58,941 nt of DNA. It comes from Aneurinibacillus terranovensis DSM 18919. GTDB lineage: Bacteria > Bacillota > Bacilli > Aneurinibacillales > Aneurinibacillaceae. How positions within the stretch are numbered: position 1 is the stretch's first letter; every line of letters begins with the position of its first letter. Positions 1,330-53,489 of the stretch are shown piece by piece. The notes under the pieces were generated by a model that was not told the DNA's origin, did not search any database, and saw nothing but the letters and a program-made list of their open reading frames with translations. The stretch is from contig NZ_KE387179.1 of NCBI RefSeq assembly GCF_000430625.1, positions 1-58,941 of the forward strand. The letters are read 5' to 3'. The translations under genes were made by a program, and so were the position numbers.

Positions 1330-1427
1330 CGTTAAAGAAAGTATATGTTGCTTTACAGTGTTAAAGCAACATATACTTTCCTCCATGGGTCACCTGAGAA
1401 AAACTTGCGGGAGTGTGCCGAACGTTG
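1330..1427 (+). repeat. 98-bp dispersed repeat with 19-bp perfect hairpin, copy 1
   Basis: This stretch is 94/98 identical, without gaps, to 53228-53325 in the gcv leader. It opens with a perfect 19-bp stem (1337-1355 with 1362-1380) around the loop CAGTGT, followed by about 47 shared bases containing GGTCACCTGAGAAAAACT. No T-run follows the hairpin, so it is not a plain terminator. In both places the repeat begins 2-3 bases after the T-run of a terminator. Here it lies about 107 bases before a broken dehydrogenase gene. Confidence 0.9.
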
Positions 1428-36066: not shown

Positions 36067-36173
36067 ATAGATAAGAAAGCATAACTTTCTTATCTATAAG
36101 TGCAACTAAGACGATCGCCAGCGCCTTTGGCTTGGTGCTAGCCAAGTTTTCTTTAGCGTGTAGAAAAGCATAC
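36067..36173 (+). repeat. Perfect 13-bp hairpin followed by dispersed palindromic repeat, copy B
   Basis: ATAGATAAGAAAG (36067-36079) pairs perfectly with 36085-36097. It is followed by repeat copy B (36099-36173) with its core GCCAGCGCC (36117-36125) opposite GGTGCTAGC (36134-36142), and the shared AACTAAG and GTTTTCTTTAG. Copy A is at 7979 and copy C at 49952. Confidence 0.75.
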
Positions 36174-53017: not shown

Positions 53018-53194
53018 AGAGGGAGAGAACGCGAACACTCGAATCGCGTCGCCGAAGGAGCAAGTGATACCTTTCTAATCTCTCAGGCAAAAGAACTTCT
53101 GTTGGACGCAACTCTGGAGAGAGCCGGTAGGAAGCCGGTCACCAAAGGGGAAACCGGACCGTTCCGGGTAGCTCTCAGGTATAAAGGACAGAGA
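53018..53194 (+). ncRNA. Tandem glycine riboswitch of the gcvT operon
   Basis: Two aptamers lie in tandem. The first has GGGAGAGAAC, CGCCGAAGGAGCAA and AATCTCTCAGGCAAAAGAAC; the second has TGGAGAGAG, TCACCAAAGGGGAAA and GTAGCTCTCAGGTATAAAGGACAG. These are the conserved glycine-riboswitch blocks. The P1 strand of the second aptamer (CTTCTGT/ACAGAG) overlaps the terminator stem at 53186, so glycine binding should prevent termination and turn the operon on. Confidence 0.93.
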
Positions 53195-53226
53195 TAGGGA
53201 TGACACCCTATTTCTGTCCTTTTTTA
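53186..53226 (+). terminator. Riboswitch-controlled terminator
   Basis: GGACAGAGATAGGG pairs with CCCTATTTCTGTCC around ATGACA, followed by T6. Confidence 0.9.
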
Positions 53227-53227
53227 T

Positions 53228-53325
53228 CGTTAAGGAAAGTATATGTTGCTTTACAGTGTTAAAGCAACATATACTTTCTTCCATTGGTCACCTGAGAAAA
53301 ACTCGCGGGAGTGTGCCGAACGTTG
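53228..53325 (+). repeat. 98-bp dispersed repeat with 19-bp perfect hairpin, copy 2
   Basis: 94/98 identical to 1330-1427. Perfect stem 53235-53253 with 53260-53278 around CAGTGT. It follows the riboswitch terminator T-run by two bases. Confidence 0.9.
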
Positions 53326-53489
53326 CTTTTTCGATGTGGAGCGTGTGGCCGGAAGGTCGATCAGACCGACAATTGTCTCCATCATTGAGGTACCCGGATG
53401 TTTTGTCGGTCCGACCTTCCGGTCACTAAGCGGCCGTTTCGCTACCCTGCAGAAAAAGGACGAGCGGCAACGCCCGCGAGTTTTTCTCA
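53293..53489 (+). other. Large fold-back structure in the gcv leader
   Basis: A 17-bp perfect inverted repeat closes it: TGAGAAAAACTCGCGGG (53293-53309) with 53473-53489. CGTTGC/GCAACG and a 13-bp GTGGCCGGAAGGT/ACCTTCCGGTCAC stem lie inside, then ACCGAC/GTCGGT. The shape may be a structured leader RNA or a miniature transposable element. It overlaps repeat copy 2. Confidence 0.75.

Follow-up and report, generated by a model that had tools for sequence, protein, structure and literature searches.

The hallmark of the REP/TnpA-REP system is a GTAG or GGAG tetranucleotide at the foot of the hairpin together with a TnpA-REP gene, and for IS200/IS605 elements a fixed tetra- or pentanucleotide lies 5' of the insertion point. 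Among BOX, RUP, SPRITE and the other prokaryotic MITEs, we know of none that insert solely behind terminators. Intrinsic terminators are the insertion sites of the group IIC (bacterial class C) introns, which lie directly behind them in a single orientation and have no homing site (PMC4424553). Excision of DNA transposons takes place at terminal inverted repeats (PMC10969869). The repeat studied here, which we named AR1, has none between its outer ends.

The window analysed is a 58,941-nucleotide stretch of Aneurinibacillus terranovensis DSM 18919 (contig NZ_KE387179.1), and all features given below lie on its forward (+) strand. The first-pass annotation had described a 98-bp hairpin module in it. 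The gapless alignment of 1330-1427 with 53228-53325 at 94 of 98 positions was reproduced, with mismatches at positions 7, 52, 58 and 77. The 98 bp are not the unit, as had been assumed, and represent the 5' part of AR1, a non-coding repeat of 262 bp; the copy at 53228 runs on to 53489 and, in agreement with the annotation, AR1 contains no gene. The element opens with a 5' hairpin of 19-21 bp, which a short linker connects to a long imperfect hairpin predicted by RNAfold. Copy 1 (1330-1427) is 3'-truncated, comprises element positions 1-98 of 262 and diverges from AR1 after base 98; copy 2 (53228-53489) is full length, with 262 bp. The 19-bp stem and CAGTGT loop reported for both copies were confirmed in their 5' hairpins, at 1337-1380 (arms 1337-1355 and 1362-1380) in copy 1 and at 53235-53278 (arms 53235-53253 and 53260-53278) in copy 2. 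Both copies begin 2 nt after a T-run, corroborating the start behind a terminator described before. The terminator attributed to a glycine riboswitch is indeed that of a tandem glycine riboswitch (53186-53225; stem 53186-53219, T-run 53220-53225) and precedes copy 2, and the one targeted by copy 1 (1299-1327; stem 1299-1321, T-run 1322-1327) belongs to a 6S RNA gene, with an Rfam 6S match at 1103-1286. The long hairpin of copy 2 (53293-53489) has the arms GAGAAAAACTCGCGGG and CCCGCGAGTTTTTCTC, so that the 3' end of AR1 is itself a hairpin followed by a T-tract. Within it, at 53363-53413, a conserved central hairpin was detected by covariance model R1 (75.3 bits, E 2e-19), with a 9-bp covarying stem and a conserved 30-nt loop, TTGTCTCCATCATTGAGGTACCCGGATGTT.

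The copy number of two given by the annotation did not hold at the genome level, where the stem sequence of AR1 occurs 80 times per strand in 4.25 Mb. Forty copies of this genome scored over 98 bp showed 95-100% identity. Two relatives, G009 and G002, each have many copies of their own version, and their best matches display 80-83% and 71-80% identity, respectively; for the full-length element, identity between this genome and the relatives, where it is also multicopy, is about 71-83%. A chance duplication of two copies is thus ruled out by copy number and conservation. Public contigs with the central motif came from Aneurinibacillus danicus and Aneurinibacillus sp. Ricciae_BoGa-3, and no AR1 copies were found in plasmid, phage and viral-contig collections. 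In the literature searched, we found no described Aneurinibacillus repeat or terminator-targeting MITE, and AR1 is undescribed as far as our searches go. A supposed long autonomous version at L107 was rejected: the 3 kb between its left and right part are ordinary chromosomal genes, indicating two separate AR1 fragments. Apparent internal deletions at element position 218 were also discarded as variants, being an artefact of assembly gaps; N runs bridge copies at eight loci (L108, L109, L112, L113, L116, L125, L134 and L142). Several contigs end in AR1, where the draft assembly breaks.

Two other repeat families were detected in the same genome, each at about 40 places. AR2 (L147-L176) is shorter than AR1, about 90 bp, and the outer stem of its 5' hairpin covaries. 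A copy located directly behind a terminator in the window (36067-36155) follows the same plan as AR1, with a 5' hairpin, a 3' hairpin and the end TTTTCTTTA. AR3 (L065-L094) contains the same central hairpin in other stems, and its own hairpin and T-tract are a target of AR1.

To define terminators, we scanned upstream of the AR1 left ends for a hairpin that closes 2-13 nt ahead of the boundary, with a T-tract after it, using non-redundant left ends with at least 60 nt upstream; one of the 73 matches listed, an antisense arm, was excluded. By this automatic scan, 62 of the 72 left ends in this genome directly follow an intrinsic terminator; in several of the ten missed, the stem exceeds the length that the scan allows. 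In the relatives, a terminator precedes 32 of 33 left ends, against 49 of 889 random positions (5.5%) and 5 of 62 positions at the mirrored right flank. For AR2, 12 of 18 scored left ends were behind a terminator, with a background of 9%. The orientation of AR1 relative to the terminator is constant; in 23 of 28 cases the upstream gene points to the element, and downstream genes lie either way. Insertion behind intrinsic terminators is therefore shared by AR1 and group IIC introns. The targets include the terminators of 6S RNA, of the glycine riboswitch and of T-boxes (L022 and L126). In addition, nine copies are located behind the hairpin and T-tract of another repeat (three AR3, five AR2 and one AR1, the last in tandem at L023), which indicates that the structure itself is a sufficient target. 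The consensus of the left flank retains only a T-tract with a preferred A, followed by a variable base. These data point to recognition of the target as a structure, a hairpin plus T-tract, and not as a sequence.

Of the two readings offered by the annotation, that of a mobile, terminator-targeting non-coding element is well supported. The roughly 80 copies are nearly identical and, with few exceptions, follow a hairpin and T-tract; they have a single orientation, and most relatives lack AR1 at one orthologous terminator. An ordinary MITE, according to the annotation, would show random positions and target-site duplications; both were looked for and neither was observed. For the other reading, a post-terminator processing site or anti-terminator partner, we found no direct support: the upstream terminators are varied, with no pairing partner, and presence or absence at the same riboswitch differs between species. 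Our analysis indicates that AR1 is a large, real family of terminator-directed non-coding mobile elements. We also observed that the copies at L022, at L126 (position ~3018) and at 53228 in the window lie between a T-box or riboswitch terminator and the regulated gene, so that transcription in the on state of the switch has to pass through them.

The junctions were defined by comparison with empty AR3 copies, which are paralogues and not alleles of the occupied sites. The empty sites read TTTGTTC directly joined to GTAACACGG at L065 and CTCTGTTC directly joined to GTACCACGG at L070. At the occupied loci L021 and L004, AR1 separates the same two AR3 halves and is preceded on its left by a single additional base, A or C; this comparison revealed no target-site duplication. 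For five copies that follow an identical AR2 sequence, AAGTTTTCTTTA, the first base after that sequence is A once, T once and C three times. On the right side, a T follows AR1 in just 28 of 63. The outer ends, CGTTAAAG and TTTTTCT[C/T]A, bear no relation to each other; no terminal inverted repeats were found between them, and all inverted repeats of AR1 are internal. AR1 is absent behind the orthologous glycine riboswitch terminator in G001, G003, G004, G005, G007 and G009, six of the ten relatives. A right-end remnant is present there in G002 and G008 and an apparent left-hairpin remnant in G006 and G010, so that decayed AR1 occurs in up to four of the ten.

The central hairpin has 51 nt, and its 30-nt loop, YTGTCTCCATCATTGAGNTACCCRGATGTT, is common to AR1, AR3 and hairpins in other genomes, on stems that are unrelated in sequence. 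Among 26 sequences, the 9-bp stem is formed in 96.9% of cells, seven of its nine pairs show changes in both partners, and covariation scores 0.779, versus 0.187 in shuffles. An inner CAUC/GAUG helix proposed within the loop was dropped, with no covariation support. The covariance model matched all 11 genomes of the family, with multiple copies in each, and 17 of 399 genomes of the class, in a patchy distribution and often with many matches per genome; in the phylum-wide draw, the genome studied here was the sole match at E <= 1e-5. Being multicopy and patchy, the central hairpin shows the pattern of a mobile element. Members in families outside the training set repeat the whole plan, including the 3'-arm block AGCGG[AC]C...CTTC. 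A consensus fold of the whole element was not obtained from the MAFFT alignment of distant families, in which the outer stems do not align. Rfam 15 at the gathering score gave no match in AR1 or in the loci of other genomes carrying the central hairpin, and no neighbouring gene recurs near it beyond orthologous loci. For the conserved loop, a role as protein handle and one as functional RNA are both conceivable.

Changes in the arms were also detected. The loop orientation is inverted in four of 73 AR1 copies, the right arm at L014 has turned into a perfect complement of the left one, and at L129 the interior of the large hairpin is inverted. Upstream of lepA, an element with the central hairpin occupies an orthologous locus in G005 (L306) and G007 (L308), with 26% of the aligned bases different; 17 stem pairs differ in both partners and still pair, two differ in one partner and five to eight are broken. 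Arm conversion through template switching in hairpin DNA is expected to yield this surplus of double changes; under stepwise selection on an RNA, more G-U intermediates should remain. The conversions, inversions and double changes are moderate evidence for hairpin DNA, which alone does not establish how AR1 moves.

We found no enzyme that moves AR1. IS200/IS605-type Y1 transposase genes are present in every AR1-rich genome and also in genomes without full AR1 (G005 and G007), which makes the correlation between Y1 and AR1 weak. The Y1 loci of this genome and of the family were rejected as a source, having no AR1-like ends, and no autonomous element with such ends was found near any Y1 or reverse transcriptase gene examined. 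The foot of the AR1 hairpin reads CGTTA or GTATA, and the proteins recognised are only short ones of the TnpA-IS200 type. The Rfam search of AR1 revealed no D5/D6 ribozyme domain and no group II match, and the element starts with CGTT and not GUGYG; a group II intron as parent was rejected on the missing Rfam match and the different ends. Group IIC introns do occur behind terminators in G001, G002 and G008, and as a remnant in the genome studied, in the form TTTTTTTA, then GTGCG...CTCGAT, then T. They start 8-9 nt behind the terminator stems, in the same orientation as AR1. At L243 (position ~2420, G001), the end of a group IIC intron is the exact start of an AR-type left end, so that intron and repeat occupy the same terminator. 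Another group IIC intron (L271, G001:C1:1441500-1448500) has its reverse transcriptase ORF split by an insert of about 3 kb that encodes tyrosine recombinases, one of 348 aa and a two-domain protein of 637 aa; six or seven further loci in Aneurinibacillus sp. Ricciae_BoGa-3 have group IIC introns whose reverse transcriptase ORF is likewise split by about 3 kb.

AR1 is probably a non-autonomous mobile element, moved in trans and directed to terminators by their structure, with an HUH enzyme as the probable route. An enzyme acting in trans would copy or move the element, which would integrate in fixed orientation about 7-8 nt behind the terminator stem, at the end of the T-tract, with no target-site duplication and with the hairpin and T-tract read as structure. 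The 3' hairpin and T-tract of AR1 would then restore a terminator-like sequence downstream and create a new target. Movement may occur as single-stranded, hairpin-folded DNA by means of an HUH enzyme (Y1, IS200/IS605- or TnpA-REP-like) that would mistake a terminator hairpin for the right end of AR1. Sites behind genes are presumably mostly harmless, which would explain the tolerance of about 80 copies. For the movement step, we infer an HUH-type single-strand reaction as first choice and retro-mobilisation as second. The inverted loops, the arm conversion at L014 and the inversion at L129 count in favour of hairpin DNA and an HUH enzyme; the missing fixed tetra- or pentanucleotide 5' of the insertion and the variable extra base at the left junction, which differs from the prediction for a precise HUH reaction, count against them. 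That variable base resembles an untemplated nucleotide and would suit retro-mobilisation, in which AR1 RNA is copied into terminators by the group IIC intron machinery. The RNA-like appearance of AR1 and the terminator position and orientation shared with group IIC introns in AR1 genomes agree with this route, which we nevertheless consider unlikely: AR1 has no ribozyme domain, ends in CGTT...TCTCA instead of GUGYG...AY and shows no prominent 5'-truncated copies, the typed reverse transcriptases of the AR1-rich G009 and G010 are of other group II types, and the T that follows the intron is invariant, against 28 of 63 for AR1.

The strong covariation of the central hairpin across several families, together with the 17 doubly compensated pairs upstream of lepA and the copies in riboswitch and T-box leaders that are necessarily read through, would also fit a functional post-terminator RNA (a processing site, terminator back-up or protein-binding element), selected in place with little or no present mobility. 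A function for the conserved central hairpin is possible. As an account of AR1 itself this is quite unlikely, since about 80 near-identical copies within one genome and species-specific versions need recent spread, AR1 is absent from the orthologous riboswitch in most relatives, the neighbouring genes are not conserved, and the excess of double over single changes fits arm conversion at least equally well. An ordinary MITE of a DDE transposase, loosely preferring T-rich intergenic DNA, would likewise be short, non-coding, multicopy, intergenic and without a gene of its own; the strict orientation, the hairpin requirement, the unrelated outer ends and the missing target-site duplication at the sites examined make it highly improbable.

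Terminator-directed insertion is known for group IIC introns, and AR1 achieves the same at about 80 places without gene or ribozyme. If confirmed, the favoured reading of AR1 as a structure-targeted element would provide a gene-sparing integration route that reads structure, a natural system to study how a recombinase recognises a hairpin and T-tract, and a new conserved structured motif as a starting point to look for a binding protein. The copies inside riboswitch and T-box leaders give it relevance for gene control. Tentatively, and with some doubt, we suggest that AR1, AR2 and AR3 may represent an undescribed kind of non-coding, structure-targeted mobile element, patchy over the class, in which any hairpin with a T-tract is recognised and the target is regenerated at the 3' end, AR1 and AR3 being built around a conserved hairpin that would serve as recombinase handle or functional RNA.

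Among the known systems, group IIC introns share with AR1 the hairpin and T-tract as target and the single orientation (PMC4424553; also seen here), and differ in being ribozymes with a reverse transcriptase and GUGYG...AY ends, neither of which is found in the 262 bp of AR1. REP/BIME sequences of the TnpA-REP system and the ends of IS200/IS605 are, like AR1, high-copy intergenic hairpins with no inverted terminal repeats, no target duplication and a short motif 5' of the hairpin foot (PMC8266576, PMC6006769). AR1 differs from REP in being a 262-bp unit of two hairpins, apparently not in the GTAG/REP format, with a fixed terminator target and no partner transposase found. The missing terminal inverted repeats and target duplication and the hairpins near both ends are IS200/IS605-like; unlike those elements, AR1 has no fixed tetra- or pentanucleotide, and no autonomous relative with TnpA and matching ends was found. 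The pneumococcal BOX, RUP and SPRITE and other prokaryotic MITEs are also small, non-coding, intergenic and mutually nesting, and SPRITE is terminator-like (PMC10969869). AR1 is therefore known in kind, both as a small non-autonomous intergenic repeat and in the terminator targeting of group IIC introns, and the combination is new.
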